This document shows positions 3,841-36,437 of a DNA stretch of 42,438 nt, piece by piece. The notes below the pieces were generated by a model. The model was not told the DNA's origin and did no database searches. It saw only the letters and a program-made list of their open reading frames with translations. The position numbers and the translations under genes are program-made. Location of the stretch: IMG/VR virus record IMGVR_UViG_3300037504_000632, positions 1 to 42,438 of that record; one strand, 5' to 3'. The stretch is from a virus. The stretch's first letter is position 1, and each line of letters starts with the position of its first letter.

Positions 3841-4293
3841 ATGGCATTTACATACGATCTATCGGCCAGCGGCGATGATCTGGCCGTATCAAAAATCAGG
3901 CTGGAAATCGGTGATACCGATAGCAGCACCGACGCCGGGGTAAAGCCGGATGGTACGAATTTTACCGACGCCGAGCTAAGCTATTTCTACGATGACGAAT
4001 CTGATTCCGTGCTGGCAGCATCGGCGCGGGCCTGCGAGGTGCTGGCCCGGATGTACGCCAGGCAGGCGGCCAGTACCCGCATCCGGGATTACCAGATCGA
4101 CAATCGGCAGCGGGCCGAGTATTTCCGAGAGATGGCCGCCGATCTCAGGCAGCGATCTGGCAGCAGCCAGTACGCCGGGGGCAGTGCCCCGATGACCAGA
4201 ATCGACGGCTACTCGAATGATGTCGCGTCCACAGAAACCGAGGAGGCTGACTCTGGTGATTACGACCGGCGTACAGTGGAGATCACCCTGTGA
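3841..4293 (+). CDS. Head-tail connector / adaptor protein
   Basis: This encodes 150 residues. I chose the ATG at 3841 over an in-frame ATG at 3799 because the sequence MAFTYDLSASGDDLAVSKIR is a natural connector N-terminus and the earlier start overlaps the micro-frame. The pattern 'RLEIGDTDSS...FTDAELSYFY' followed by an Ala-rich helix (ASARACEVLARMYARQ) matches the gp6/gp15-like connector proteins that ring the portal. The stop overlaps the GTG start of the next gene by 4 bp. The role is to join the head to the neck. Confidence 0.7.
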   Translation: MAFTYDLSASGDDLAVSKIRLEIGDTDSSTDAGVKPDGTNFTDAELSYFYDDESDSVLAASARACEVLARMYARQAASTRIRDYQIDNRQRAEYFREMAADLRQRSGSSQYAGGSAPMTRIDGYSNDVASTETEEADSGDYDRRTVEITL

Positions 4294-4712
4294 GCCAATC
4301 AGCCGTCTACCGCATCGGCCTGGAAAATGCCTTCGCCGATCTGCGCCGCATCACAGGCCGGCCCTCAATCCGGGTATATCCCTGGCAAGTGCCGTCTGGC
4401 TTGAGCTATTCGTCCGATCTGGATGGCTGGATCGACGGGGACGGTGATATCGTCACCCGCACCGACGATCAGCTCGATTACTACGATGTGCCCGCCCTGT
4501 GGGGAGAGGATGCCGAGAGCCTGATCCTGGGTATGGGCGGCATTTCCGCCCAGGGCGGGGTAGTGGCGGTGGCGAATGTCGATTATCTGTATTTATTCAA
4601 TGCGGCTATGATGATTGTGGCCGACGGGGAGCGATACACGGTAAATGAGGTCGGCACAGGACCGGATGGCCTGGCCGCTTTTGTGGTGGCCGAAATGAGC
4701 CGGAGGGAATAA
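4290..4712 (+). CDS. Head closure / neck protein
   Basis: This encodes 140 residues from a GTG start that overlaps the previous stop (GTGA). It is predicted to be mostly beta, with the segment FVVAEMSRRE at the end. The gene sits between the connector and an HK97 gp10-like protein, the usual place of the head-closure (stopper) protein that keeps DNA in the head. The assignment rests mainly on gene order and size, as the sequence itself is divergent. Confidence 0.55.
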   Translation: MSQSAVYRIGLENAFADLRRITGRPSIRVYPWQVPSGLSYSSDLDGWIDGDGDIVTRTDDQLDYYDVPALWGEDAESLILGMGGISAQGGVVAVANVDYLYLFNAAMMIVADGERYTVNEVGTGPDGLAAFVVAEMSRRE

Positions 4713-16453: not shown

Positions 16454-17131
16454 ATGAGCGATGTACTGAGATCAAATAGACTTGCCACCGGCGCGACGGA
16501 TGATACGGCGGCGACGGGTGAGATTTTCCCGGCGGGAGGGGTGTACCAGGGCACGGTATCCGAGGTGGATAGCGGCGATATCGGCAGGATGCGGATGTCG
16601 GCGCGACGGGCTGCCCTCCATGCTATGGATGGCGGGATCACAAATGCCCTTTTCTCGGATATTGATAGCAGTGAGAAATATATTGATGATATTCTTTTTT
16701 ACAATTTACACACCGGGCTATTAGGCTCTACGGATGGATCCACTCCCGGCACGACTTCGGTCATTGTGATCCCACTGGCGGTAAATTATTGGCGGGATAT
16801 CTTTATCCATATCCGAACTGGAGCTAATTTTTTCGATCAGGCCACTACCCTGGGCCTATATTCGGCCTGGAACAATACGGTGGTATCAAATTCCCGCTCC
16901 TCAAAGCTCATGGAGATCACGCTTTCCGCCTCTACGGATGTGAGAATCTCAATGGGAAATGGAAAGGAAGGGCAGGGCGGAAGTGCCGGGGGGGCAACAG
17001 CCTCAGATAGAGACCACTACGAGGTGTCGGTGCCGGAGGCGGCGCCGTACATCCAGCTGCTGCTCACTGCCAGCACTGCGCCAACGACCGGGCAGGAGCT
17101 ATATCGAGTCGTGATCGGGAGGGTAGCATGA
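16454..17131 (+). CDS. Putative tail fibre / receptor-binding protein
   Basis: This encodes 225 residues behind an AGGAGG site. It is beta rich with many Gly, Ser and Thr residues and no membrane segment. The C-terminal segment VSVPEAAPYIQLLLTASTAPTTGQELYRVVIGRVA is typical of compact trimeric fibre heads. The position at the end of the tail module supports a receptor-binding role. There is no recognisable enzymatic motif. Confidence 0.5.
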   Translation: MSDVLRSNRLATGATDDTAATGEIFPAGGVYQGTVSEVDSGDIGRMRMSARRAALHAMDGGITNALFSDIDSSEKYIDDILFYNLHTGLLGSTDGSTPGTTSVIVIPLAVNYWRDIFIHIRTGANFFDQATTLGLYSAWNNTVVSNSRSSKLMEITLSASTDVRISMGNGKEGQGGSAGGATASDRDHYEVSVPEAAPYIQLLLTASTAPTTGQELYRVVIGRVA

Positions 17132-17544
17132 TAATCAAAATCGCATGTCATCGCTCCGGCCCCAATTGGCCGGAGACGAGTAGCACGGATCTCGCGACAG
17201 CGATCACCGAGGCATACCGCCTCAATCCGTTGTCGATTCTCGAATTTTTCCAGGCGATCATTGCCGCCGGTGGGGCGCAGGCGGAGCTAGCCCCCCTGTA
17301 TGGATATCAGAAATTGATCGAGCATTTGGAGCGAGCATTGGCTAATGGCGATCTGGCCGCCGTGCAGGTGTGCGTCGGCCTGGCTGCCGATCTGGAGAGC
17401 CTGAGCCAGGAGACCACCGATGCAATCGAGGCCGTGATTGCGGCCAATTCGCTGCGGCTGGTGGATATCGTAGCCGCCGAGATCGGTGAGGATGCGCCGG
17501 AGACGGTGACGACTGCCGATGTGGATGCGGCGTTGGGGAGATAA
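17128..17544 (+). CDS. Hypothetical helical protein at the end of the tail operon
   Basis: This encodes 138 residues, starting in an ATGA overlap. It is almost entirely helical, with Ala-rich segments (LSILEFFQAIIAAGGAQAELAPLYGYQKLIEHLERALANG) and acidic helices after residue 85. It has no transmembrane segment. It could be a fibre-associated chaperone or minor tail protein, but I recognise no family. It is the last plus-strand gene before the convergent terminator region. Confidence 0.6.
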   Translation: MIIKIACHRSGPNWPETSSTDLATAITEAYRLNPLSILEFFQAIIAAGGAQAELAPLYGYQKLIEHLERALANGDLAAVQVCVGLAADLESLSQETTDAIEAVIAANSLRLVDIVAAEIGEDAPETVTTADVDAALGR

Positions 17545-17576
17545 AAAAAAAAGCCCCGACCATCAGGTCGGGGCTT
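17543..17576 (-). terminator. Intrinsic terminator of the minus-strand early unit
   Basis: The stem AAGCCCCGACC (17551-17561) pairs with GGTCGGGGCTT (17566-17576), with loop ATCA. Read on the minus strand it is followed by a run of ten T. On the plus strand only GGGG follows, so it is weak for the tail operon. Confidence 0.85.
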
Positions 17577-17591
17577 GGGGTAGCCTTTCAT

Positions 17592-17885
17592 TCAACGAGG
17601 GATTAGACGAACACGGAGGGTGTCAAACGAGAGACGCTCCATATCGTCCACGATGTACCCTCCGCAATCCGTAGAGGTCGACACTCGGTGCGTCCCCTGC
17701 CACGATTCAGTGGGCTCCTTCTCCTCAGAGATGGAGATACCAAAACTCGTTTCGGTATCTCCGATTTTCACATCGTACCCATAGGGTACGCTCGTGTACA
17801 TCGAGTTCACCTCTATCAGGCGGACTCGATCTCCAATATTGAGATCAATATTGGCGGAAATATCCACGACTTTAATGTCTTCCAT
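17592..17885 (-). CDS. Hypothetical small beta-rich protein
   Basis: This encodes 97 residues. I chose the ATG at 17885 because it follows GAGGAGAAATAAA, and an in-frame ATG 42 bases upstream lies inside the hairpin element. It is acidic and beta rich (DIKVVDISANIDLNIGDRVRLIEV), with the segment LNIGDRVRL resembling a small barrel. I recognise no family. It is the last gene of the minus-strand unit that starts at the 18785 promoter. Confidence 0.65.
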   Translation of the reverse strand: MEDIKVVDISANIDLNIGDRVRLIEVNSMYTSVPYGYDVKIGDTETSFGISISEEKEPTESWQGTHRVSTSTDCGGYIVDDMERLSFDTLRVRLIPR

Positions 17886-17908
17886 TTTATTTCTCCTCTT
17901 CTTCGGTA

Positions 17909-17933
17909 GGGGCGCGACTCTCGCCACACCCCC
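17909..17933 (-). promoter_or_regulatory. Intercistronic hairpin before the ribosome binding site
   Basis: On the plus strand GGGG (17909) pairs with CCCC (17929-17933), with an inner GCGA / TCGC stem. It lies between the stop at 17987 and the AGGAG site of the 17885 gene. It belongs to the hairpin family that precedes most early genes here. Confidence 0.55.
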
Positions 17934-17986
17934 GACAAGATTTATTCTTTATCCGCCCCGGCCTCGCAGCCGGGGGCTTTTCGAGA

Positions 17987-18247
17987 TTACATCCGAGCCT
18001 TTCGATGCAAGGCTCTCATTTGGAGAATCTCATTCTCCAAATGCTCAATCCGCCCAGCAGCCTCCATCTGCCGGAGGGATGGTTCATCATCTTCTTCATT
18101 ATTTTCATCTATGAGATATATGCTGTACCTGTGGACCGATCCGTGCCCTCGGCCCATATTCCAGGACAAGCCTGGAAATTCCTCTAGCAAACTATCTATC
18201 AGGCTCGTGCTGATTTTCCTCGAGAACATCATATGAAGCTTATACAT
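17987..18247 (-). CDS. Hypothetical protein with helical C-terminus
   Basis: This encodes 86 residues with a clear AAAAAGGAGACC site before the ATG. The N-terminal half reads MYKLHMMFSRKISTSLIDSL, a central part has GRGHGSVHRYSIYLIDENN, and the C-terminal third is an amphipathic helix. I recognise no family. The 3' part of the gene holds two perfect inverted repeats: GAGCCTT / AAGGCTC at 17995-18015 and a 12-bp arm pair at 18017-18043. Confidence 0.65.
   Translation of the reverse strand: MYKLHMMFSRKISTSLIDSLLEEFPGLSWNMGRGHGSVHRYSIYLIDENNEEDDEPSLRQMEAAGRIEHLENEILQMRALHRKARM
18017..18043. repeat. Perfect 12-bp inverted repeat inside a coding sequence
   Basis: CATTTGGAGAAT (18017-18028) and ATTCTCCAAATG (18032-18043) are exact reverse complements around CTC. 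The repeat lies within the coding sequence of the 17987-18247 gene, next to a 7-bp one. Confidence 0.9.
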
Positions 18248-18267
18248 TTTTGGTCTCCTTTTTATAG

Positions 18268-18282
18268 GGGGCTAATCGCCCC
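18268..18282 (-). promoter_or_regulatory. GGGGC hairpin joined to a ribosome binding site (minus copy)
   Basis: GGGGC / GCCCC with a 5-base loop stands just upstream of AAAAAGGAGA. The surrounding 30 or so bases are almost identical to 23074-23111 on the plus strand, so this is a duplicated translation leader. Confidence 0.8.
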
Positions 18283-18302
18283 GGATTTTTTTTGCGGCTT
18301 GC

Positions 18303-18348
18303 GCCACAGTCCCGGCCCGCCACCTGAATGATGGGCCGGAAGCGTGGT
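18303..18348 (-). ncRNA. 46-bp conserved structured element, copy 1
   Basis: This is 45 of 46 bases identical to 22827-22872. It folds into a two-tier stem: CCGGCCC with GGGCCGG inside, and CCAC with GTGG outside. In this copy the outer stem is extended by a C-G pair where the other copy has T-A. It lies between the ADP-ribosyltransferase-like gene and the next gene of the operon. Confidence 0.7.
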
Positions 18349-18353
18349 GCAAA

Positions 18354-18785
18354 TTACCTCACTTCTTCGATCTCCCACACGTGGATCCACTCCTCTTCTC
18401 CATCTTCCGTGTCCACGTAATCCACCCTGTCCGAGGCCAGGGTGTACTTCCGGTCGTCAAATTCTTGCCGGGGGATCCAGGTCCGCCCGTTGTCCTTCCA
18501 GGCGGTGCGGATAAATTCCGCCGGGACATCCTGGTCGTTGACCAGGATTTCGTCAAACATCGGGATCTCGGTCGTGTCGAAATCATCGAGGTCGAGATTG
18601 ACCTCGATGACGATATCGCCGTATTGAAACGCCGCGCCCATTCTCGGAGTGAGCGAAACGCCGGGGTGGTCGCCTGCCCGCTCTTCAAATATTTCGTAAT
18701 TCACATCGGTGGGACGGCTTGCTAGGAGGCCGCGATCAAGAATTGATTGAATGTTTGAGCTGGAAGTTCCGTGATAAAGTTTCAT
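18354..18785 (-). CDS. Putative ADP-ribosyltransferase-fold protein (KptA/ART-like)
   Basis: This encodes 143 residues. MKLYHGTSSSNIQSILDRGL places His5-Gly-Thr followed by the helix 'SILDRGL', the first motif of the ART/Tpt1 fold. GVSLTPRMGAAFQYGDIVIEV (42-62) matches the second strand-turn-helix motif, and DEILVNDQDVPAEFI (78-92) the third. These enzymes bind NAD+ and usually modify proteins or nucleic acids. It is first behind its own strong promoter, so it would be made early. The fold is inferred from motifs only and activity is unproven. Confidence 0.5.
   Translation of the reverse strand: MKLYHGTSSSNIQSILDRGLLASRPTDVNYEIFEERAGDHPGVSLTPRMGAAFQYGDIVIEVNLDLDDFDTTEIPMFDEILVNDQDVPAEFIRTAWKDNGRTWIPRQEFDDRKYTLASDRVDYVDTEDGEEEWIHVWEIEEVR
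18529..18610. repeat. Two perfect inverted repeats inside the ART-like gene
   Basis: TCCTGGTC / GACCAGGA (18529-18547, 3-base loop) and TCATCGAGGTC / GACCTCGATGA (18583-18610, 6-base loop) are both exact. They lie in coding sequence and are not needed for a common amino-acid repeat. Confidence 0.85.
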
Positions 18786-18833
18786 TTCTTCTCCCTTTTC
18801 TTACCGGAGGGCCATCCCCTCTGAACTATCTAT

Positions 18834-18862
18834 ATTATACCGCACTTCCGATAGATTGTCAA
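18834..18862 (-). promoter_or_regulatory. Promoter P1 (minus), sigma70-type
   Basis: On the minus strand TTGACA (18862-18857) and TATAAT (18839-18834) are 17 bases apart, a perfect consensus. The spacer holds the shared element TCTATCGGAAGTGCGG. The transcript would begin with a CAGAGGG/CCCTCCG hairpin and then a ribosome binding site for the ART-like gene. Confidence 0.9.
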
Positions 18863-18919
18863 GCGCATTTACACGACTTTTGTTATACTTTCGGAAATAC
18901 GGTAAATTGGTAAATTCAT

Positions 18920-20917: not shown

Positions 20918-20935
20918 ATTTCCAACTTCCCTCTT

Positions 20936-20964
20936 ATTATACCGCACTTCCGATAGATTGTCAA
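20936..20964 (-). promoter_or_regulatory. Promoter P2 (minus), sigma70-type
   Basis: On the minus strand TTGACA (20964-20959) and TATAAT (20941-20936) are 17 bases apart, identical to P1 over the spacer and the 30 bases upstream. It drives the SWIM, zinc-ribbon and RAD52-like genes. Confidence 0.9.
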
Positions 20965-20987
20965 GCGCATTTACACGACTTTTGTTA

Positions 20988-21005
20988 TACTTTCGGAAAT
21001 ACGGT
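20988..21005. promoter_or_regulatory. Operator-like site between divergent promoters
   Basis: TTTCGGAAATACGGTAA resembles, in inverted orientation, the ATACCGCACTTCCGATA sequence inside promoter P2. Together they frame the divergent region. A second copy stands at 18890-18907. The small regulator at 21065 is the obvious candidate to bind, by inference. Confidence 0.5.
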
Positions 21006-21015
21006 AAATTGCCTA

Positions 21016-21286: not shown

Positions 21287-21930
21287 GGATCGTCCATTGC
21301 GTCGCAGACTGGGACAGGATGGCCCGCATTACGGAATTGAATGATTTATTCTACCCTCATTTATTCCTGGTCCGGGAAAACCAAATATCGTGGGGTGATG
21401 ATTCCGCCGCTTACACGCCGGACGGCCTGCGAGCCATCTGTCCTGAGTGCGATGATTTCGAGCAGGCTCTCAGGCTATTGCCCTCCTGGGGGCGGAAAAT
21501 TAGTTTCCGCATCGGGAATTTTGATTGGGCCGATCATCCCGGCTACAAAGAAATATTTCGGGATGAGATTATATCGCATCTTGATATACCGGATAATGCT
21601 AATCTATCCGGTGCTTGGATGGATGGAGCATCTGCTATATCTCCGAATGGCCCGGTCCTATATGGCGAGTGGGAGGTGTGGCTCAATCTGGATAGCATAT
21701 TCTCCATTCTATTTTCGGCCCGATTCTGGCCGTGGGATCATTCTCTCAGAATTACGAGCGAATTCCACATAATGGAGTGGAATGAATTCCGAGGGAGCAC
21801 TCGGTTGACTGGCTTCTACTGCTTGCCGGACGCCCTGGATCATCTCAAGCGGATGGAAAAAAGCCGGTCAGACTTTGATCTGATAATCCCGGATTGGGCC
21901 AATCATCGCAATTCCGAAATTGGCCCTTGA
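21283..21930 (+). CDS. Hypothetical protein, unknown function
   Basis: This encodes 215 residues, starting in an ATGA overlap with the regulator. It is rich in aromatic residues, especially Trp, and mixes helices and strands. Segments such as YPHLFLVRENQISWGDDSAAYTPDGLRAICPECDDFEQAL do not match a family I know. The coding sequence contains perfect inverted repeats at 21492-21510 (GCGGAAA / TTTCCGC) and 21588-21612 (ACCGGATA / TATCCGGT). Its stop codon lies inside the -35 box of the next promoter. Confidence 0.7.
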   Translation: MRIVHCVADWDRMARITELNDLFYPHLFLVRENQISWGDDSAAYTPDGLRAICPECDDFEQALRLLPSWGRKISFRIGNFDWADHPGYKEIFRDEIISHLDIPDNANLSGAWMDGASAISPNGPVLYGEWEVWLNLDSIFSILFSARFWPWDHSLRITSEFHIMEWNEFRGSTRLTGFYCLPDALDHLKRMEKSRSDFDLIIPDWANHRNSEIGP

Positions 21931-21955
21931 CAATCTATCGGAAGTGCGGTATAAT
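21927..21955 (+). promoter_or_regulatory. Promoter P4 (plus), sigma70-type
   Basis: TTGACA (21927-21932) and TATAAT (21950-21955) are 17 bases apart with the same spacer as P1 and P2. The sequence upstream of -35 is coding, so the upstream block shared by P1, P2 and P5 is absent here. It drives 22007-24565. Confidence 0.9.
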
Positions 21956-21969
21956 ATAGATAGTTCGGA

Positions 21970-21988
21970 GGGATTGGCCCTCCGGTAA
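21970..21988 (+). promoter_or_regulatory. 5' leader hairpin after P4
   Basis: CGGAGGG and CCCTCCG pair around ATTGG, within about 15 bases of the likely transcription start. The same hairpin follows P1 and P5. It may protect the mRNA 5' end. Confidence 0.8.
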
Positions 21989-22006
21989 GAAAAGGGAGAT
22001 AAAGAA

Positions 22007-22321
22007 ATGCAAGTTTTTGAAAAATGGATGATCGCCAGATACGGCGGAGATGAAGAAATTGAGGTTGAGGGGAAGGCCTGGGAAACACTCTTTCCCGAGA
22101 ATAAAAATCGTATGTCCCACCTTTTGCCCCTTGTCTCGTTCATCGGCGGAGAGTTGCCGCCGGTTCTTAAAGAACTCGGCATTACCCGCCGAGATCTCGA
22201 AAGTCTCTCTATTAGAGAGACTTTCGAAGTGCTAGACTCGATTTCATCTTTCTTGGCGGCCAAGAAAGATGAAATCAATCAGGCGGGCCATCTGGCCCGC
22301 CTGATTGAGGCCAGCAGATAA
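22007..22321 (+). CDS. Hypothetical protein with palindrome-dense coding sequence (paralogue of 35996-36304)
   Basis: This encodes 104 residues: MQVFEKWMIARYGG, then helical segments (LLPLVSFIGGELPPVLKELG, DLESLSIRETFEVLDSISSF). I recognise no family. It is closely related to the minus-strand gene 35996-36304, including promoter, leader hairpin and 3' hairpin. From 22146 to 22308 the coding sequence is a chain of inverted repeats, some with 14-18 bp perfect arms, so the transcript must be highly structured. The locus may act as RNA as well as protein. Confidence 0.7.
   Translation: MQVFEKWMIARYGGDEEIEVEGKAWETLFPENKNRMSHLLPLVSFIGGELPPVLKELGITRRDLESLSIRETFEVLDSISSFLAAKKDEINQAGHLARLIEASR
22197..22308. 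repeat. Three long perfect inverted repeats in a coding sequence
   Basis: Arms are 22197-22210 with 22214-22227 (TCGAAAGTCTCTCT), 22240-22257 with 22259-22276 (GATTTCATCTTTCTTGGC), and a 14-bp pair (AATCAGGCGGGCCA) around TC just after. All arms match exactly. Shorter stems lie upstream (GGCGG/CCGCC, GTTCTT/AAGAAC, CTCGGC/GCCGAG). Confidence 0.9.
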
Positions 22322-22327
22322 TTCATC

Positions 22328-22358
22328 GGGGGCGTGGCGGCCCGGCTGTCGCGCCCCC
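22328..22358 (+). promoter_or_regulatory. Intercistronic hairpin joined to a ribosome binding site
   Basis: GGGGGCG (22328-22334) pairs with CGCCCCC (22352-22358), followed by AAAAGGAG. Nearly the same sequence occurs at 35955-35990 (minus) and 23510-23540 (plus), so it is a repeated module. Confidence 0.75.
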
Positions 22359-22376
22359 CCCAAAAGGAGAAACGAA

Positions 22377-22817
22377 ATGGGTAAGGGATTGGGAGCAATC
22401 TTAGCAGCAAACGAGATGAGCCGAAAGGCGAGTCTCGTATCAGAAAGGCAAGCTCCGGCGTGCCCGCTGTGTGGGCAGCCGATGGAACACGAGCTGGGCG
22501 GCTGGTTTTGCCGCTCAGAGGATGACGATTACGGGGGGCAACGACCCTGCGTATTTCGGGCCAAGAAGGGCGTAGAGAAAGAGTTTTACGCCCAGGGCTT
22601 GGGTCATCTCTCCCGTGATGACTTTCAAGGCCAAACGCTGGCCGCCATCATCAAGGATGGCGAGCCTTTGGTAGAGTTGGTCACAATTCGGGGTAGAGGC
22701 GGACGAACGAACCTCCGCTTGTGGTCCGACATTTCAGATCACGACCTGCCCGAATTGTGCGCGGACGGGGAGTGGACCTGGATGGATTGGGCGTATCCAT
22801 TCAGGCATCAAGGGTAG
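22377..22817 (+). CDS. Hypothetical zinc-finger protein
   Basis: This encodes 146 residues with the AAAAGGAGAAACGAA site before the ATG. Residues 29-58 have CPLCGQPMEHELGGWFC and a later C, giving a topoisomerase-like zinc ribbon. The C-terminal part (LVTIRGRGGRTNLRLWSDISDHDLPELCADGEW) is unassigned. It lies in the P4 unit of unknown early genes. Confidence 0.6.
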   Translation: MGKGLGAILAANEMSRKASLVSERQAPACPLCGQPMEHELGGWFCRSEDDDYGGQRPCVFRAKKGVEKEFYAQGLGHLSRDDFQGQTLAAIIKDGEPLVELVTIRGRGGRTNLRLWSDISDHDLPELCADGEWTWMDWAYPFRHQG

Positions 22818-22826
22818 GCGGCTCGT

Positions 22827-22872
22827 ACCACGCTTCCGGCCCATCATTCAGGTGGTGGGCCGGGACTGTGGC
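22827..22872 (+). ncRNA. 46-bp conserved structured element, copy 2
   Basis: This is 45 of 46 bases identical to 18303-18348 on the opposite strand, in the same sense relative to transcription. CCGGCCCA / TGGGCCGG and CCAC / GTGG can pair around a symmetric GCTT/GACT internal loop. Outside CCAC it has GTA with CAC on the other side, where copy 1 has GCA and CGC. Confidence 0.7.
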
Positions 22873-22933
22873 ACAAGCTGGGTCGCATTGTCGCCGGGAG
22901 GCGTACCTGGGATCGTTCCCCAGGCGGCGATAA

Positions 22934-22998
22934 GCCACCTAAGGCGAGTGCGTGGGAGCCATCTGCGGCACCAACAGGTTCGATTCCTGTTGGTGGCA
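22934..22998 (+). other. tRNA-like fold lacking an anticodon arm
   Basis: GCCACC at 22934 can pair with GGTGGC, and the T-arm motif AGG-TTCGATT-CCT is intact with a stem of 10 bp. A D-arm-like GGC...GCC follows the acceptor strand. Only about 13 bases remain where the anticodon arm should be, so it cannot be a normal tRNA. It may be a relic, a tRNA-like structure, or chance. Confidence 0.3.
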
Positions 22999-23083
22999 AG
23001 CACAGTAAGGCTGATGGTGGCGGCGAAAAATCCGGCAGGGTGCAGTAGGCCGGTCAGGTGGGCGACGCCGCAAAATAAAATCC

Positions 23084-23098
23084 GGGGCGATTAGCCCC
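23084..23098 (+). promoter_or_regulatory. GGGGC hairpin joined to a ribosome binding site (plus copy)
   Basis: GGGGC / GCCCC with loop GATTA, then CCTATAAAAAGGAGA, is nearly identical to 18255-18290 on the minus strand. It precedes the ATG at 23119. Confidence 0.8.
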
Positions 23099-23118
23099 CT
23101 ATAAAAAGGAGAATAAAG

Positions 23119-23502
23119 ATGTACCATCCAAATTTTAGAAGTCTAACTGAGCACGGGGCTGAGCTACGAAATTTCACCCCTCATCCCCTGGTCGTGGTGG
23201 ATGAGGGGGGCAACGAGATCATGAATCTTCCTTCCGAGGGCAGCATTCGCCTTCGGGAGAAGATCGATGGCTGCCCCCAAGTAGTAGACGGAATCACCTT
23301 CGTCGAGAAAGAATACCAGGCATCCGACGATCTGCCTTCTCCCGAAGAAGGCGTCCTGATCGTAGTGTCAAAAATGGTCATGGATGCGATCTCGAATCGT
23401 CTTGATCTTGTCTGCCCGGATACCGGGCCGGACAGCGCGGTTCGGGATGCTGATGGTCGTATTGTGGCCGTGAAGCGGCTGCAGTACCGGGAGATTGAGT
23501 AA
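23119..23502 (+). CDS. Hypothetical beta-rich protein of the 'LTPH' type
   Basis: This encodes 127 residues. The pattern GAELRNFTPHPLVVVDEGGNEIMNLPSEGSIRLRE, followed by VLIVVSKMVMDAI and DLVCPDTGPDSAVRDADGRIVAVKRL, resembles a small bacterial family I know only by this pattern and cannot name. It looks like a compact beta domain. The gene contains a perfect 10-bp inverted repeat (CCCCTCATCC / GGATGAGGGG, 23177-23208) and a 7-bp one. Function is unknown. Confidence 0.6.
   Translation: MYHPNFRSLTEHGAELRNFTPHPLVVVDEGGNEIMNLPSEGSIRLREKIDGCPQVVDGITFVEKEYQASDDLPSPEEGVLIVVSKMVMDAISNRLDLVCPDTGPDSAVRDADGRIVAVKRLQYREIE
23177..23208. repeat. Perfect 10-bp inverted repeat in coding sequence
   Basis: CCCCTCATCC (23177-23186) and GGATGAGGGG (23199-23208) match exactly around a 12-base loop. 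Confidence 0.85.
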
Positions 23503-23509
23503 AATTATC

Positions 23510-23539
23510 GGGGGCGTGGCGGCCAGGCTGTCGCGTCCC
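23510..23539 (+). promoter_or_regulatory. Intercistronic hairpin before a ribosome binding site
   Basis: GGGGCG pairs with CGTCCC (one G-T pair), then AGAGGAG. It is the third close copy of the GGGGGCGTGGCGGCC module. Confidence 0.65.
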
Positions 23540-23554
23540 GCAGAGGAGAAAAAA

Positions 23555-24219: not shown

Positions 24220-24228
24220 ATCTTATCA

Positions 24229-24257
24229 GGGGCGCGATGGTCCATCCATCGCGCCCC
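24229..24257 (+). promoter_or_regulatory. Strong 12-bp intercistronic hairpin
   Basis: GGGGCGCGATGG (24229-24240) pairs exactly with CCATCGCGCCCC (24246-24257), followed by AAAAAAGGAG. It is the most stable of the early hairpins. It has no T-run, so it is not a standard terminator. Confidence 0.8.
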
Positions 24258-24278
24258 GCCAAAAAAGGAGATTAATTG

Positions 24279-26689: not shown

Positions 26690-27568
26690 ATGACAAGAGA
26701 GATGAATCTAGAACAAGTAGAAGTCGACAATTCATTCAATCCCCGCATCGGCGCACTCGATCAGGATGCGGTGAATGAATACGCCCAGCACATTGAGGCC
26801 CTGCCGCCGATGGTCGCCTTCGAGCTGGAAGGCCAGAATCGGACGGTGTTGGTGTGTGGATTCCATCGCTACGCCGCCCACCAGCTGGCCGGAGCGGAGA
26901 CGGCCAGCTTCGATATCCGGCAGGGCACGGAGGATGAAGCCAGAGAGTACGCCGATCTGGACAATCTCCGGCACGGCATCCGGCTCACCCGCTCCGAGAA
27001 AAGGCTCGTAATCCGCCGTTATCTGGCTCGCAATAGCCGGATGTCTGATTCGGTGGTGGCGCGGGCCTGCCACACCACCGACAAAACGGTGCGCTCCGTG
27101 CGCCGGGAGATGGAGGCGACCTCGGAAATTCCGAGGCACGAGAGTCTGGTCGGGGCGGATGGTGTGGAGCGACCTCGCTCGATCAGCCGCCCCCCGCCCG
27201 AACCGGACGGGCCGCCTGCCGGCAATATCTCATCCACTATCACCGGCGGGCCTGATCCGGATCACCGGTCCGATGATCGGGCGGCGGATATCGCGCCCCC
27301 GCCTGCCCCGACCGCTGCCCAGGTCGCTCCGCCGCCCCCGCCTCCCCCGTCGCCGGCGGTCAGCCGTCCGGCCCTGGTCATCACGGCCAGCGTGCCGGAT
27401 GATGGACCGGTGGTGGTATCGGCCAAGCGGGGGGATGTGATGCTTGGCCTGGAGAGCGGTAGCAAATATGACCTGGGTCGCCTGGCCCAGGATATGATGG
27501 AAGAATACATAAATCAGCCGCCGGATAAAGAGTGGCTGGAGGAGAGTGAAAATGGCAACGCTGTATAA
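26690..27568 (+). CDS. ParB-like nuclease/partition protein
   Basis: This encodes 292 residues with the site GGGAGAACG before the ATG. N-terminal motifs NSFNPR (14-19), and CGFHRYAAHQLAGA (about 61-74), match the ParB/sulfiredoxin superfamily, the second being the DGxHR-like segment. A helix-turn-helix follows (RMSDSVVARACHTTDKTVRSVRRE), then a proline-rich linker. Such proteins bind centromere-like DNA and, with CTP in some members, slide along it. In PRTRC gene sets a ParB-like gene stands at this place. TGCAATTGCA palindromes just upstream are possible binding sites. Confidence 0.75.
   Translation: MTREMNLEQVEVDNSFNPRIGALDQDAVNEYAQHIEALPPMVAFELEGQNRTVLVCGFHRYAAHQLAGAETASFDIRQGTEDEAREYADLDNLRHGIRLTRSEKRLVIRRYLARNSRMSDSVVARACHTTDKTVRSVRREMEATSEIPRHESLVGADGVERPRSISRPPPEPDGPPAGNISSTITGGPDPDHRSDDRAADIAPPPAPTAAQVAPPPPPPPSPAVSRPALVITASVPDDGPVVVSAKRGDVMLGLESGSKYDLGRLAQDMMEEYINQPPDKEWLEESENGNAV
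27120..27136. repeat. CTCGGA-N3-TCCGAG palindrome, copy 3
   Basis: CCTCGGA-AAT-TCCGAGG has 7-bp arms. It lies inside the ParB-like gene, at the codons after its helix-turn-helix. Confidence 0.85.
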
Positions 27569-27782
27569 ATATCAGGCTGGCGATGTGCTGGTCCAGTTCG
27601 TGGATGAAGAGGATCAGTACCAGCCGGATCAAATCAAAAATCACTGGCGAGAGACCTACCCGGCCCTCGCCAACTGCACCACCGATATCAGCGATACGCC
27701 GGTAGAGACGGAGGTGGACGGCCAGAAATATGAGATCGACCGGACGGTGGAGTTTGTCAAGCGGGTGGGCACGAAGGGATGA
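27552..27782 (+). CDS. Ubiquitin-like protein, PRTRC system C / Prok_Ub family
   Basis: This encodes 76 residues. I chose the ATG at 27552 because GGAGG lies eleven bases before it. It has a beta-rich start (LYKYQAGDVLVQFVDEE), a central helix segment (PDQIKNHWRETYPALANCTTD) and a final strand EFVKRVGTKG. The ending GTKG with no residues beyond glycine is characteristic of PRTRC C proteins, which Pfam places in a prokaryotic ubiquitin family (from memory). A free C-terminal glycine can be adenylated by the E1-like protein without processing. It overlaps ParB by 17 bp and the next gene by 4 bp. Confidence 0.75.
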   Translation: MATLYKYQAGDVLVQFVDEEDQYQPDQIKNHWRETYPALANCTTDISDTPVETEVDGQKYEIDRTVEFVKRVGTKG

Positions 27783-28006
27783 TTGATATCCTGATTGCCG
27801 CCCTTCATCCCGCCCCCCAGCCCGGCCTTGATCTGATCGAGATCGTGATCGGCCTGGACGATGCGGCGGAGGCAATGGCCATTGCCTCACAGATTGAGGC
27901 GGCCCAGGAGGATCTGGCCGACCTCTCCAAGCGATCCAGGGAGGCGGTGCGCAGATGCACGGAATTGAGGCCCTCGCCGGCCAATTTCGTTCCTCTCGGA
28001 TTTTGA
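27779..28006 (+). CDS. Small helical protein in the Ubl cassette
   Basis: This encodes 75 residues, starting in an ATGA overlap with the Ubl gene. A hydrophobic start (MIDILIAALHPAPQPGLDLIEIVIGL) is followed by an Ala, Glu and Asp rich helix. I recognise no family. It stands where some PRTRC sets carry an additional component. The last 52 bp overlap the next gene, and its end could be an extension without function. Confidence 0.4.
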   Translation: MIDILIAALHPAPQPGLDLIEIVIGLDDAAEAMAIASQIEAAQEDLADLSKRSREAVRRCTELRPSPANFVPLGF

Positions 28007-28848
28007 GGCCGTACTCCCTGCTGGCCCGCTATCGCCCGGTCCGCCTGGGTGTGGTGGCCCGCCAGCTGCGTAATGCGGGCCGCTCGATGCGGGTGATGCG
28101 ATTGATCGAGCGGCATTTTCCCCAGGCCGTCCGGCCCGCCTTCAGTGAGGCGGCCAGCATCGAGGGCTGGCTCTACCTGATGCGGGAATTTCTGGATATG
28201 GTAGATGAGCAGTGGTTCGAGATCGACTGGGAGCTACTCGATGGGCTGTATGAGGCCGCCCAATCTGTGGGCTGGGATGATGATGATAATGAGCCGGAGG
28301 GGATCAGGATGATGGCCGATTTGCTGGTCAGGATTCCGCACCGGTCCGTCCGGCCCGGCCGGGAGGATCTGGAGAATGACGAGTCTCTGTCCGCCGTCCA
28401 GATGGTCGCCGCTGTCCAGGATGAGATCGTCACGAGCTATGATATGATGGAGATCATCTGGGAGGTTGGCGAAATGCCGGGGGAAGAGCCGGATGATCTG
28501 TACGAGGCCAGAGACCGGCTCTGGTATGGCGATTGGAGCGATTTTGAGCCGCCCCTTTGCCATATCCCGGTCGTGGCCGAGATTGTAGCCGGGGAGACCG
28601 GCAATCCATTTTTGGATGCGGAGGCCGGATGGCGCAGGATATATGATGAATGGGATATGATGTACGAGTGGGACTGTCCCGACGATGTCGAGAAATTGCG
28701 CCGGGCCTGGCCGGAAGCGCAGGGGCGTATCGAGGCATATGAAGAATTTGTCAGGTGGGCCGCCGATTACGAGCATTTTGATGATCGACTGCGGGCGGTG
28801 TCCCGCGCACTATTTTATGGAGAAAGGAAGTGGAGGAGTAATGATTGA
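27955..28848 (+). CDS. Acidic helical protein, candidate PRTRC system F
   Basis: This encodes 297 residues, starting inside the previous gene. It is mostly helical, acidic and rich in Trp and Tyr (VDEQWFEIDWELLDGLYEAAQSVGWDDDD; WDMMYEWDCPDDVEKLRRAW). Length and position after the Ubl gene agree with PRTRC protein F, but I cannot confirm this from sequence. It could be an unrelated phage protein. Its stop overlaps the start of the nuclease gene (28841). Confidence 0.4.
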   Translation: MHGIEALAGQFRSSRILRPYSLLARYRPVRLGVVARQLRNAGRSMRVMRLIERHFPQAVRPAFSEAASIEGWLYLMREFLDMVDEQWFEIDWELLDGLYEAAQSVGWDDDDNEPEGIRMMADLLVRIPHRSVRPGREDLENDESLSAVQMVAAVQDEIVTSYDMMEIIWEVGEMPGEEPDDLYEARDRLWYGDWSDFEPPLCHIPVVAEIVAGETGNPFLDAEAGWRRIYDEWDMMYEWDCPDDVEKLRRAWPEAQGRIEAYEEFVRWAADYEHFDDRLRAVSRALFYGERKWRSND

Positions 28849-29566
28849 TCTATCAGTATTCGATAATATTCAGTTCGATGGCATTCGCCATCGCTATTTT
28901 TGCAACGGGGGGCTGGAGCTGAAAAGCGTCACCAGGCGGTTATCTGCCCTCAAGCCCAGATTCGACGCCGATTTTTGGGCCAATCGCAAGGCCAGGGAGC
29001 GCGGTGTCGAGCCGTCGGTCATCCTGGCCGAGTGGGAACAGAAGCGGCGGGATGGCCTGGAGCGGGGCAGCCGAGTGCACGAGGCGATACAGGCCGTGCT
29101 TGATCCCGAAAGCGGGGCGGTCAACCGGGCCGCCGATCTGCCGGAATTTCGGGCATTCCAGAAATTCTGGCTGGATGCGGGCCAGATTCTGCTCGGCCCG
29201 CTTGGGGTGGAGCAGATTGTCGGTTCGGTCGGCTGGAGAATCGCCGGCACGGTCGATCTGGTGTACACCGACGGCCAGAATCTTGGCCTGATCGACTGGA
29301 AGTCCGGCCTCAAATTCCGTACCGAAAATGATTACGGACGGCTGCTCCCGCCGTTTGACGACCTCGACAATTCCGAGCTGGCGAACTACTCGCTGCAGAT
29401 CAATCTGTATCGCCTGCTGATCGAGCGGGCGACAGGCCGGGATGTGGACGAGGCCTATCTCGTGCATCTGAAGCGGGATGGCGACTACGAATTATACGAG
29501 GCCCTTGATCTGGCCGATCGACTGCACGCCTGGATCACCGAAGAGCCGGAAGAGATTCCATTTTAG
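28841..29566 (+). CDS. PD-(D/E)xK nuclease, RecB/Cas4-like
   Basis: This encodes 241 residues. I chose the ATG at 28841 because it follows GGAGG. The order GSRVHEAIQ (77-85), E124, GTVDLV (136-141, D139), IDWKSG (151-156, D152 and K154) and YSLQINLYRLLIE (183-195, Q186) fits the RecB-type exonuclease core. Such nucleases process DNA ends and commonly work with annealing proteins such as the RAD52-like one encoded at 19252. The gene lies inside the ubiquitin-like cassette, between the F-like and E2-like genes. Confidence 0.8.
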   Translation: MIDLSVFDNIQFDGIRHRYFCNGGLELKSVTRRLSALKPRFDADFWANRKARERGVEPSVILAEWEQKRRDGLERGSRVHEAIQAVLDPESGAVNRAADLPEFRAFQKFWLDAGQILLGPLGVEQIVGSVGWRIAGTVDLVYTDGQNLGLIDWKSGLKFRTENDYGRLLPPFDDLDNSELANYSLQINLYRLLIERATGRDVDEAYLVHLKRDGDYELYEALDLADRLHAWITEEPEEIPF

Positions 29567-29576
29567 GAGGAGGATT

Positions 29577-30110
29577 ATGAATTTCAATGAGTACACCAGG
29601 TTGGCCGCGAAAACGGCCAACGAGGATTTATCATACGAGATCAAGCTGGCCTCTGCCGCTTTAGGGCTATCGGGCGAGATGGCAGAATTGGGCCGGGAAC
29701 TTGAGATCGGTGATAGAGAGGTACAGCTGGAAGAGATCGGGGACGTTTTCTGGTACGTGGCTCGGCTGACCGATTTGCTTGATATCGAGGCTAGCCTATC
29801 GTTTATCTCGATAATATCGACGAAATTGACTGTTGATTGGGCCATGAGCCGTAATCTGATGGGTGGACTTCTGCTGCATAGCCAGGGCCATATCGCCGAT
29901 GCTATCAAGAAGTACCTCGCGCACGGCCACGAGCTGGATCGGGATAATATCGCATCCGCCCTCTCATTTATCTTCGTCGCGCTGGCTCGCATAGCCGAGA
30001 ATCTCGACTCTTCAATTGAGCAAGTGGCCGCTGCCAATATCGCGAAGCTACAGGCCCGCTACCCGGACGGCTTCAGCGAGGAGCGCAGCCGGAACAGGGA
30101 GGACGGATGA
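29577..30110 (+). CDS. MazG-like nucleoside triphosphate pyrophosphohydrolase
   Basis: This encodes 177 residues with an AGGAGGAGG site before the ATG. ALGLSGEMAELGRE (about 22-35) and LEEIGDVFWYVARL (about 46-59) provide the metal-binding E-x-x-E and E-x-x-D pairs. The end IAKLQARYPDGFSEERSRNR is typical of phage MazG-like enzymes. These hydrolyse dNTPs or (p)ppGpp. It has a few regions poorer in GC than its neighbours. It sits with the nuclease as an insertion in the Ubl cassette. Confidence 0.85.
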   Translation: MNFNEYTRLAAKTANEDLSYEIKLASAALGLSGEMAELGRELEIGDREVQLEEIGDVFWYVARLTDLLDIEASLSFISIISTKLTVDWAMSRNLMGGLLLHSQGHIADAIKKYLAHGHELDRDNIASALSFIFVALARIAENLDSSIEQVAAANIAKLQARYPDGFSEERSRNREDG

Positions 30111-30799
30111 CAACATTTCCGATCTTCCCGGCCATTGAATTTTACACCGGCGATTACGCCAGAATCAGAATGGAGCTGTGGCTCTACGATGATTTTATCG
30201 TAGCCTGCCCCTACCGGGATGGCGAGCCGGGTGATGCCTACCTGGTCGATCCCCAGGATGTGGGGGCGGCCCTGGCCGGTAGTTTGCATCTGGGCACGGG
30301 TCTGTTGCCGCAAAATACGCTCTTCTGGCAGCAGCACGGCAGTGAGCAGCGTATCGCGATATGGATACCGCCGAAGCGGTGGCGATTGCGGGTTGCTCCC
30401 GCAGACCGGCCCAATCGGGATATCTTTTTGCCCGCCTTTGCTTTTGTGGGGGAGGGCCGGGCCTACGGCCTGTGGGCCTTGCGGGATGGGCATACATTCC
30501 CGGATGATCTATCGGCCCGGCTCTACCGCGCCCCCGTGCCGAATATGGGCCGGGGCGTGTGCCGGGGGAGTGTGGATTTCCCGGAAGCCGGACCGGATAC
30601 GATAGGCCTGGCCGCCGATCTTTTTTTCGGCAGCAATTTCAATGAGCATCTATCCGACGGCAAGAGCATCAAATACCCAAATTCGATCCTGGGTATGTGG
30701 GATGAGCTGCACGAATCCGGGGAGGAGTACCCCCAGCTTGATCTGATCGACGCCGGATTATCGCTGCGGGATCTGATCGTTGATGGGGGGGAGCTATGA
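30107..30799 (+). CDS. E2-like conjugating protein, PRTRC system B / Prok-E2_D-like
   Basis: This encodes 230 residues, starting in an ATGA overlap. The segment LYRAPVPNMGRGVCRGSVDF (139-158) places Cys152 shortly after a PN motif, as in the HPN...C active site of ubiquitin E2 enzymes. The C-terminal part LFFGSNFNEHLSDGKSIKYPNSILGMWDEL and LSLRDLIV matches the PRTRC B pattern I remember. The expected role is to accept the Ubl from the E1 and pass it to a target. The assignment to the E2 family is inference from these motifs and the gene context. Confidence 0.65.
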   Translation: MTTFPIFPAIEFYTGDYARIRMELWLYDDFIVACPYRDGEPGDAYLVDPQDVGAALAGSLHLGTGLLPQNTLFWQQHGSEQRIAIWIPPKRWRLRVAPADRPNRDIFLPAFAFVGEGRAYGLWALRDGHTFPDDLSARLYRAPVPNMGRGVCRGSVDFPEAGPDTIGLAADLFFGSNFNEHLSDGKSIKYPNSILGMWDELHESGEEYPQLDLIDAGLSLRDLIVDGGEL

Positions 30800-31395
30800 T
30801 TCCGAATGGCGTATCGTATCACATTCACCGGCGGCCTGATGATCTGCTCCCGATTCGGTACGGCTTCGTGATGCACCGGGGCGGCGTGGCGAAAGTGGTC
30901 CGCAGCCGATTTTTCCGGGCGGTGACGACGGCGGCGACCGGGCACATCCCCGGCCTGCCGCCGCTGCAGATGGGATTCGAGTGGCTGGCCCCGCCCATTC
31001 CCGTCCGCCTGCTGGCCGTCGTGCTGGAAGATGCGCGGCAATTCGGGCCGGGCGGGACGATGATAGAGCAGATGTACCAATTCCATCTCACCCCCGATGG
31101 CTGGCAGGTGGCCCGGCCCAGGCAGCAGGCTACCGCCGGGCGCATCATCTACCGACCCGGCGATGATCGGGCCGTCGGCCTGGAGCTACACAGCCATCAC
31201 GGGATGAATGCCTATTTCTCGGCTACCGATAATCGGGATGAGGTGGATGGCGGGCGGCTGTACGGCGTGATCGGGCGGATCTACTCCGCTCCGGAGATCA
31301 GGCTCAGGGCCGGGCTGTATGGCGATTGGATACCGGTCCGGGCCAGTCAAATTTTCAATGGGTTGATTCAATTTAAGGAGAGATACGATGAGTAA
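30796..31395 (+). CDS. JAB/JAMM metalloprotease, PRTRC system A-like
   Basis: This encodes 199 residues, starting in an ATGA overlap with the E2-like gene. The JAMM motif is exact: His132-x-His134-x7-Ser142-x2-Asp145 (LHSHHGMNAYFSATD). A glutamate upstream (E79) can act as the general acid-base, as in the family. The enzyme should cut isopeptide bonds or process Ubl termini, with zinc. Fixed gene order E2-like, JAB, E1-like in this genome is the strongest evidence for a Ubl pathway. Confidence 0.85.
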   Translation: MIPNGVSYHIHRRPDDLLPIRYGFVMHRGGVAKVVRSRFFRAVTTAATGHIPGLPPLQMGFEWLAPPIPVRLLAVVLEDARQFGPGGTMIEQMYQFHLTPDGWQVARPRQQATAGRIIYRPGDDRAVGLELHSHHGMNAYFSATDNRDEVDGGRLYGVIGRIYSAPEIRLRAGLYGDWIPVRASQIFNGLIQFKERYDE

Positions 31396-31645
31396 ATTAT
31401 CAAGAATGTCGGATGAAGAGCTGGCCGATTTGATTCGCCGGCATATGAATGAGGGTGATACACTGAATGAGGGTGATACACTGGCCGAGATTGGGCCGGG
31501 TGGATTTGGGATTGATATTCGCTTGCTCTTTTTTATTCTGCTCTTGATCGGGCTGGCTTGCGGGGCAGGCGGGCATTTCAATGAGCGATACACGCACGGC
31601 TATCGTTGCCACGAAAATATCATCGGGCAGACGATATGCGAATGA
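31388..31645 (+). CDS. Small single-pass membrane protein
   Basis: This encodes 85 residues with an AAGGAG site. An acidic cytoplasmic part includes a duplicated NEGDTL. One transmembrane helix (LLFFILLLIGLACGAGG) and a 25-residue tail follow. It lies between the JAB and E1-like genes. I recognise no family. It could anchor the cassette at the membrane or be unrelated. Confidence 0.6.
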   Translation: MSKLSRMSDEELADLIRRHMNEGDTLNEGDTLAEIGPGGFGIDIRLLFFILLLIGLACGAGGHFNERYTHGYRCHENIIGQTICE

Positions 31646-32577
31646 TGCCATACCGGATCGAGCCGGGAGAATTTAGCAGGCTCAATATCTATCTGATCGG
31701 ATGCGGCGGCACAGGCTCATTCCTGGCCCTGCATGTGGCCCGGCTGGCCTGGGCAATGCGGGATCGGGATACAGGTATCGCGATCACATTTGTCGATGGG
31801 GATGATATCGAGGCCAAAAATGTCGGTCGGCAAAATTTCTGCCCGGCGGAAATCGGCTACAGCAAATCCCTGGCCCTGGCCGCCCGCTACAATGCCGCTT
31901 TTGGCCTGCGCATCAGGCCGGTAGTCGGATTTTTCCGGGCCGATGATTTTGAGCGGGAGCTGCATCATCTCAGTATCGGGCTGGATAATCTGGTAGTGAT
32001 CCTGGGAGCAGTCGATGGGCCGTCCGGTCGGCGGGAGATCGCCCGCGTGATGGATACACCCACTCGCCGGAAATGGTGGATAGACGGCGGCAATGACCAC
32101 GAGAGCGGGCAAATTCTGATCGGGAACGGCCATCAGGTGGTGATCTCGGAGACGGGATTTTGCAGCGAATTGCCCCGGCCCGATATCCAAGAGCCGGGCC
32201 TGCTCACCCAGGGCGGCGGCGATGGGTCGGATGATCTCAGTTGTGCTGATCTACTGGTGCGGGATGCTCAGAATCTGATGATAAATCAGGTGATGGCCGG
32301 CTGGATGGCGAATTATCTCTATCGCCTGGTGCTGGCCCGTGATCTCGATCTGATGCGGACCGAGATTGACTTGGGCGGCACGGCTCGCAGCGACAGGATT
32401 CGCGGCGGCCAGATCAGCCGGATAGATGGAGATCGAGCCGGTCCGCCGCTTCTGGATATGGAAATATGCCCCCGATGCGGGGCGGGCCTGGCCGATGGCC
32501 GGGATACTGTTGATGGATTCGAGGTGGATATTATTTTTTGCCCGGCCTGCGACTGGAGGCCGGAGGAGGGTGAGTGA
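31642..32577 (+). CDS. ThiF/E1-like adenylyltransferase of the PRTRC type
   Basis: This encodes 311 residues. I chose the ATG at 31642 for its ATGA overlap; ATGs at 31636 and 31645 are also possible. IYLIGCGGTGSFL (16-28) is the ATP-binding loop. FVDGDDIEAKNVGRQNF (50-66) gives the Asp and Arg residues of the adenylation site, and IGYSKSLALAARYN follows as in E1 proteins. A C-terminal zinc ribbon has CPRCGAG and CPACDW. The protein should adenylate the Ubl glycine and transfer it to a cysteine, perhaps the one in SETGFCSEL. Confidence 0.85.
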   Translation: MMPYRIEPGEFSRLNIYLIGCGGTGSFLALHVARLAWAMRDRDTGIAITFVDGDDIEAKNVGRQNFCPAEIGYSKSLALAARYNAAFGLRIRPVVGFFRADDFERELHHLSIGLDNLVVILGAVDGPSGRREIARVMDTPTRRKWWIDGGNDHESGQILIGNGHQVVISETGFCSELPRPDIQEPGLLTQGGGDGSDDLSCADLLVRDAQNLMINQVMAGWMANYLYRLVLARDLDLMRTEIDLGGTARSDRIRGGQISRIDGDRAGPPLLDMEICPRCGAGLADGRDTVDGFEVDIIFCPACDWRPEEGE

Positions 32578-35926: not shown

Positions 35927-35995
35927 TTTAAGCTCCGCTTTTCTTTCTCCTTTTGGTGGGGGGCGCGATAGCCGGGCCGCCACGCCCCCGATGAA

Positions 35996-36304
35996 TTATC
36001 TGCTGGTCTCAATCAGGCGGGCCAGATGGTCCGCTTCTTCTAGAACATCTTTCTTGGCGGCCAAGAAAGATGAAATCGAGTCTAGCACCTCGAAAGTCTC
36101 TCTATTAGAGAGACTTTCGAGGTCTCGGCGGGTAATGCCGAGTTCTTTCATCACCGGCGGCAACTCTCCGCCGATGAACGAGACAAGGGGCAAAAGGTGG
36201 GACATACGATTTTTATTCTTGGGAAAGAGTGTTTCCCAGGCCTTCCCCTCAATTTTTTCCTCTCCGCCGTATCTGGCGATCATCCATTTTTCAAAAACTT
36301 GCAT
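35996..36304 (-). CDS. Paralogue of the 22007-22321 protein
   Basis: This encodes 102 residues, closely similar to 22007-22321 (MQVFEKWMIARYGG, LLPLVSFIGGELPPVMKELG, FEVLDSISSFLAAKKD). Differences concentrate around residues 14-30 and near the C-terminus. The same inverted repeats are present in the DNA, one with 16-bp arms (CCTCGAAAGTCTCTCT around AAT). It has its own promoter P5. Function is unknown. Confidence 0.75.
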   Translation of the reverse strand: MQVFEKWMIARYGGEEKIEGKAWETLFPKNKNRMSHLLPLVSFIGGELPPVMKELGITRRDLESLSNRETFEVLDSISSFLAAKKDVLEEADHLARLIETSR

Positions 36305-36355
36305 TTCTTTATCTCCCTTTTCTTACCGGAGGGCCATCCCCTCCGAACTATCTAT

Positions 36356-36384
36356 ATTATACCGCATATCCGATAGATTGTCAA
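36356..36384 (-). promoter_or_regulatory. Promoter P5 (minus), sigma70-type
   Basis: On the minus strand TTGACA (36384-36379) and TATAAT (36361-36356) are 17 bases apart. The spacer reads TCTATCGGATATGCGG, a three-base variant of P1, P2 and P4. Upstream it shares the block AAGTCGTGTAAATACGC with P1 and P2. Confidence 0.9.
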
Positions 36385-36437
36385 GCGTATTTACACGACT
36401 TTTGTTATACTTTTGAGATTCATTAAATTAAAATCGC

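Follow-up and report, generated by a model that had tools for sequence, protein, structure and literature searches.

RNase P recognizes the stack of the acceptor stem and the T-arm; a T-loop-like structure is needed, while the D-loop appears dispensable (PMC4919913). The enzyme also cuts mRNAs, for example polycistronic mRNAs and that of T4 gene 32, and it cuts the C4 antisense RNA of phages P1 and P7 (PMC11143913). The locus described here lies in a phage genome that is 42,438 bp long, has a direct terminal repeat of 127 bp and makes up the whole stretch of DNA that was analysed (hereafter the window). Like the P1/P7 C4 and T4 gene 32 substrates, it places a tRNA-like acceptor/T-arm stack between genes, in this case in a predicted phage transcript. 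It differs from these substrates in that its T-loop is canonical, and in that its cleavage is a prediction.

Three other described systems resemble parts of the locus. The bacterial Y RNA YrlA (RF02553) is no tRNA, but imitates the acceptor, D and T arms of one (PMC8394870). Our insert is likewise a tRNA mimic without an anticodon arm, within a larger RNA that is closed by pairing of its ends. However, its T-arm aligns at positions 31–47 of 114 of the Rfam model, in the 5' part, and the insert is longer than YrlA, lies inside a predicted mRNA and is not accompanied by a Ro60 gene in the window. With phage tRNA genes and their remnants, of which tRNA-Thr is nearest, the insert shares the T-arm, the 3' acceptor strand and a similar 5' GCCACCT. 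In contrast to these genes it has no anticodon arm and no CCA, its D-arm is doubtful, the 5' partner of its stem adjoins the T-arm, and it went undetected by ARAGORN and RF00005. The flanks of the insert, rather than the insert itself, resemble the start-associated and extended start-associated sequences of cluster K mycobacteriophages (PMC3203893), which likewise recur between cistrons, immediately before start codons. Yet, the flanking modules of this phage are strong RNA hairpins with an RBS, and their sequence is unrelated.

The locus fits best into a kind that is already known, as an insert in a phage mRNA leader that mimics a tRNA or is derived from one. The insert with its exact ends, the empty copy of the module, the operon context and the minihelix were all established by computation (Table 1). 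Our preferred explanation, which we hold with a little less than even confidence and which draws on sequence comparison and folding models, is that a degenerate tRNA-Thr-like insert sits in the leader hairpin of an early mRNA, perhaps as an RNase P site. According to this explanation, an early polycistronic mRNA of the phage would carry a long hairpin between two cistrons, and 190 nt would have been inserted into the 3' strand of this hairpin. The core would be a degenerate sequence, probably derived from a tRNA-Thr, that lost its anticodon arm and may now form a minihelix of acceptor stem and T-arm capped by the T-loop. The rest of the insert would fold around the minihelix, closed by GTCGC/GCGAC, and would form an extra branch on the basal stem GCGGC/GCCGC.

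Table 1. Positions of the features in the window
Feature	Positions	Strand	Details
Promoter of the insert-bearing operon	21927–21955	+	Consensus sigma-70, TTGACA-17-TATAAT; consensus scan
Operon gene 1	22007–22321	+	104 aa, hypothetical; paralogue at 35996–36304, minus strand
Hairpin-plus-RBS leader module	22320–22372	+	Separate intercistronic hairpin family
Operon gene 2	22377–22817	+	Hypothetical; 3' end just upstream of the interrupted module
Interrupted module, left part	22818–22878	+	5' strand of basal stem, GCGGCT, at 22818–22823
Insert	22879–23068	+	190 nt; one clean gap in the alignment of the two copies
Arm 1	22889–22932	+	Hairpin TGTCGCC...GGCGATA, inner CCTGGG/CCCAGG; z −1.9
Possible 5' acceptor strand	22934–22939	+	GCCACC, pairs with GGTGGC at 22992–22997; energetically disfavoured
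Possible D-like arm	22943–22960	+	GGC-GAGTGCGTGGGA-GCC; weak
tRNA acceptor/T-arm mimic (minihelix)	22967–22997	+	GGCACCA-ACAGG-TTCGATT-CCTGT-TGGTGGC, then A
Arm 3	23011–23056	+	Hairpin closed by CTGA/TCAG; no more stable than shuffles, z −0.2
Interrupted module, right part	23069–23118	+	CGC closing the basal stem, GGGGC-GATTA-GCCCC hairpin, RBS
Operon gene 3	23119–23502	+	127 aa, PHROG 30542 and 21731, hypothetical; directly downstream of the interrupted module
Uninterrupted module copy (empty site)	18243–18348	−	18348–18297 plus 18296–18243
ParB-like protein	26690–27568		PRTRC-like cassette, below NCBIfam cut-off
PRTRC protein C-like	27546–27782		PRTRC-like cassette, below NCBIfam cut-off
PRTRC protein B / prokaryotic E2 family D	30107–30799		Below NCBIfam cut-off
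PRTRC protein A / JAB	30796–31395		Below NCBIfam cut-off
ThiF/E1-like	31606–32577		Below NCBIfam cut-off

The larger module consists of a long hairpin, followed by GGGGC-GATTA-GCCCC and then by an RBS, and it occurs in two copies, at 18348–18243 on the minus strand and at 22827–23118. The left flank of the insert (22827–22878) is 96% identical over 52 nt to 18348–18297, while the right flank (23067–23123) is ~93% identical over 57 nt to 18298–18243. In line with the initial annotation, which had placed an insert between two duplicated elements, the aligned copies differ by a single clean gap. Its junctions are ambiguous by 2 nt, with GC at both ends.

The insert interrupts the 3' strand of the basal stem, between AGC and CGC. 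With the insert taken out, the two flanks in the filled copy form one symmetric hairpin with the basal stem GCGGCT/AGCCGC (−48.1 vs −42.2 kcal/mol). This stem came out equally well in 1.6% of the trials with a random hexamer at the junction, and in 0.5% with a random left flank. Completion of the basal stem by the joined flanks is moderate evidence that the insert-free form is probably older, and we infer that an insertion rather than a loss took place, with the uninterrupted form very probably ancestral. Conversely, the filled form might be ancestral, and a deletion between the GC repeats might have removed the insert from the copy at 18348–18243. The 2-bp microhomology at the insert ends would suit such a deletion, and there is no outgroup to polarize the change. 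Yet the basal stem of the joined flanks would then be a coincidence (P ~0.016), which makes a deletion improbable. Returning to the insertion, GCCGC is still present after the insert owing to the GC repeat, and hence GCGGC/GCCGC can still pair and the basal stem can still close around the insert. Indeed, the predicted fold has this stem closed, with the insert as an added branch. The same leader module without the insert, in the same genome, provides a built-in and unusually clear control.

The early region, at ~17–36 kb, is made up of repeated modules: promoters recur, and strong hairpins, each directly followed by an RBS, stand between the genes that they precede. The sigma-70 promoter of the insert-bearing operon has near-identical copies at 18862 (−), 20964 (−) and ~36383 (−). 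A separate family of intercistronic hairpins, GGGGGCGTGGCGGCC...CGCGCCCCCC, is found at 22320–22372, 23502–23554 and 24220–24272 on the plus strand and at 35997–35940 on the minus strand. A consensus scan of the plus strand found neither a terminator nor a second promoter between the promoter at 21927–21955 and the gene at 23119. These predictions indicate that the insert most probably sits within a polycistronic mRNA, after gene 2 and before the RBS of gene 3.

Judged from their sequences, the early operons are modular, with different genes behind near-identical promoters. A block of promoter, gene and hairpin is duplicated with 93% identity over 453 bp, and near-identical early promoter regions with different genes attached occur at 21923–22377, 35940–36385 (−), 18776–18909 (−) and 20935–21011. 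These duplicated modular leaders with their differing genes offer a useful view of early-gene shuffling in this phage group.

As a whole, the insert is only mildly more structured than its shuffled versions (z −2.1; 6 of 200 shuffles were as good). Its one significant structure is the minihelix, for which none of 200 shuffles was as good when 22964–23000 was folded (z −4.66). The stem measures 12 bp (7 + 5 bp) with one G.G mismatch, which is the length of the acceptor-plus-T-arm stack of a tRNA, and the loop, TTCGATT enclosed by G and C, has the T54 T55 C56 R57 A58 signature of tRNAs. The T-arm pairs had a probability of 0.97–1.0 in three contexts, and the G-C end pair of 0.53–0.77. This T-arm had already been noticed as AGG-TTCGATT-CCT, and it turned out to be the sole T-loop hairpin of its kind on both strands of the window. 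Dinucleotide shuffles of the window gave 0.18 T-loop hairpins per window with a stem of at least 5 bp, and none with a stem of at least 8 bp in 60 shuffles. The large hairpin that had been described at 22890–22931 is likewise present, near 22889–22932; folded over 22888–22933 it reaches −21.6 kcal/mol, and 9 of 200 shuffles were as good. The suggested closure of the whole insert by GTCGCC and GGCGAC reappeared as GTCGC/GCGAC in the predicted fold. For arm 3, the z value was computed over 23009–23058.

The acceptor and T-arm fold that had been proposed for 22934–22998 held up in part. The T-arm is present and an anticodon arm is indeed absent, but the acceptor pairing GCCACC/GGTGGC loses to a competing partner, GGCACCA, which immediately precedes the T-arm (pair probability ~0 vs ~1 in context). 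Hence, according to the folding models, the 12-bp T-loop minihelix is the dominant form. In isolation, the full tRNA-like fold reached −20.7 kcal/mol and the minihelix −27.4 kcal/mol; the full fold thus costs ~7 kcal/mol isolated and ~16 kcal/mol within the insert context, although it may be undervalued because folding programs ignore the contact between D-loop and T-loop. Given the 3' half, a 5' acceptor strand with a D-like arm had a P of 0.014 in shuffles, by a criterion chosen after the sequence had been seen, and these elements weakly support descent from a tRNA. No convincing open reading frame with an RBS runs across the insert, the length of which is not a multiple of three.

Gene-finding programs and family models did not recognize a tRNA. 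ARAGORN reported 0 tRNA genes in the window, and RF00005 gave no match on the genome at E up to 10. Rfam at gathering thresholds, tmRNA included, gave no match in the whole window, and a search at E up to 10 assigned no family. The initial annotation had proposed Infernal with Rfam as a check on the insert, and here too no family reached its gathering threshold. The best match on the plus strand was tRNA-Sec (22.1 bits, E 0.059, against a gathering score of 47), and another weak match was Plastid-ycf2 (24.9 bits). The insert does not form a tRNA cloverleaf, as only ~13 nt lie between the D-like arm and the T-arm and there is no anticodon arm. It does have a canonical T-arm on an acceptor/T stack, formed by ACAGG-TTCGATT-CCTGT and a 7-bp extension with one mismatch.

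A BLAST search of 22934–23000 against phage records matched the T-arm and 3' acceptor strand of tRNA-Thr from Streptomyces phages (91% over 23 nt). The 5' end of this tRNA, GCCTCCGTAACTCAGTCGGT, resembles GCCACCTAAGGCGAGTGCGT of the insert. The match is short (E ~6) and similar T-arms are found in tRNA-Arg of other records, so the assignment to Thr leans also on the 5' end GCCACCT. From these likenesses, tRNA-Thr is tentatively the nearest tRNA, and a tRNA origin of the insert core seems probable. Unannotated sequences resembling the 3' half of a tRNA, on which ARAGORN was silent, were also seen in two other phages: in Lactococcus phage WRP3 shortly before a gene (~200–225 of stretch L015), and in Pseudomonas phage M5.1 between two tRNA genes (~170–225 of stretch L013).

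If the insert has a function, it would most likely serve as a target for host enzymes that recognize acceptor/T-arm stacks, with RNase P as the first candidate. The minihelix at 22967–22997 has the acceptor/T-arm stack, the T-loop and the G1-C72 pair of an RNase P substrate. The stem has the right length, is capped by a T-loop, ends in a G-C pair and is located between cistrons, which makes it a plausible processing site. A cut at or near 22966/22967 would leave the upstream cistrons and the downstream one on separate RNAs, and might thereby set their relative stability and expression. RNase P prefers CCA after the acceptor stem. In contrast, the minihelix is followed by A and then AGC, without CCA, and one pair of its stem is G.G, both of which argue against an RNase P site. 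The lack of homologues in the collections searched and the only mild structure of the insert as a whole also count against the preferred explanation. Taken by itself, the proposal of an RNase P site is doubtful on these models. A broader proposal, which we consider rather improbable, is a compact RNA domain that mimics the tRNA elbow and is transferable between early hairpin modules. It would either recruit an enzyme of the host that reads tRNAs, be it RNase P or another one, and so set differential expression of the phage cistrons, or titrate this enzyme. Should RNase P indeed cut at the minihelix, we would have a naturally occurring case in which a phage has put a worn-out tRNA to new use, as a signal for mRNA processing.

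The main rival to a processing site is debris. A phage tRNA gene, or part of it, might have decayed in place or might have been brought along with neighbouring DNA by illegitimate recombination, leaving a functionless remnant that is tolerated in the spacer. We consider this possible, though unlikely. The loss of the anticodon arm, the single copy, the lack of homologues and the weak structure outside the minihelix are all in agreement with a remnant, as are the unannotated partial tRNA-like pieces in phages WRP3 and M5.1. However, the 12-bp stem is near-perfect and the T-loop intact, the 5' partner GGCACCA is found directly before the T-arm, a place where no tRNA has it, and the hairpin that received the insert keeps its basal stem thanks to the insert ends. 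With its 12-bp stem and the placement of GGCACCA, the best structure of the insert is more than decay by itself would leave. Even as debris only, the insert would show how tRNA pieces reach phage leaders. Alternatively, and in keeping with the tRNA-like decoy that had been suggested at first, the insert might work like YrlA, as a decoy or effector RNA that resembles the tRNA elbow and titrates host factors that bind tRNAs (RNase P, TruB/TrmA, EF-Tu, PNPase or a defence nuclease). It has the intact T-loop on a stem of acceptor length without an anticodon arm that such a mimic would have. Yet it most probably lies inside a polycistronic mRNA, without a predicted promoter of its own, the YrlA model scored 8.8 bits against a cut-off of 69 with the T-arm as the only matching part, and no match to Ro60/TROVE (PF05731) was found in the window, although the host may have a Ro60. 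Because of the lack of a promoter, of a Ro60 gene and of a YrlA match beyond the T-arm, a free YrlA-like decoy is less likely, and we regard a decoy as quite improbable.

Mobility had been suggested as well, in the form of a mobile structured RNA, but the searches argue against it. The insert is single-copy in the phage genome, no homologue was found in the viral, plasmid, phage or bacterial collections searched, the 27-mer of the minihelix had no match in a scan of bacterial genomes, and no gene is associated with the insert. A small mobile element, MITE-like or other, that carries a structured RNA could explain the clean insertion into a hairpin, the 2-bp end repeats and the short inverted ends GGTCGC/GCGAC. 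However, inverted ends of 5–6 bp are expected by chance in GC-rich DNA, and the 2-bp GC is also plain microhomology, which leaves such an element very improbable. Least probable is an attP made of the 3' end of a tRNA, serving integration. The tRNA 3'-half-like sequence within a phage genome is what one would expect of such a site, but neither the tyrosine integrase model PF00589 nor the recombinase model PF07508 gave a match in the window, and for lack of an integrase this reading was rejected. Moreover, upstream of the tRNA-like 3' half one finds the complement of this half where a tRNA would have its anticodon arm, and the site lies inside an early operon.

An 18-mer match in an unrelated viral contig (L009) was dismissed as chance. 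The matching sequence there belongs to a separate gene at 4243–4318, which resembles tRNA-Cys(GCA), has an odd D-arm and an encoded TCCA end, and was passed over by ARAGORN.

Judged from its sequence, the phage is nearly an orphan and represents a little-known phage group. Genes for terminase, portal, major head and tail proteins occupy one end of the genome. The terminase is less than 30% identical to those of annotated phages. We searched 2.9 million viral contigs with the terminase, the portal and major head proteins (single and aligned), the gene downstream of the insert and an alignment of the paralogues of the first gene, and also ran DNA patterns of the insert and the module against these contigs. 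This yielded a single relative, IMGVR_UViG_3300005512_000112, with 60% identity in the terminase and 70% in the head protein. Relatives of the head protein were absent from 84,980 bacterial and archaeal genomes. Neither a DNA match to the insert nor a homologue of the downstream gene was found in the relative phage. One of its genes (~16640–18200 of stretch L006, −) reads like a large serine recombinase, which the PF07508 model alone missed; blastp found no similar open reading frame in the window.

The window also contains a PRTRC-like cassette at 26690–32577, all members of which score below the NCBIfam cut-offs (Table 1). Several members have homologues in the relative phage. Finally, the early gene at 18354–18785 (−) has an N-terminus, KLYHGTSSSNIQSILDRGL, that resembles ADP-ribosyltransferases, with a weak PARP match (E 0.002).
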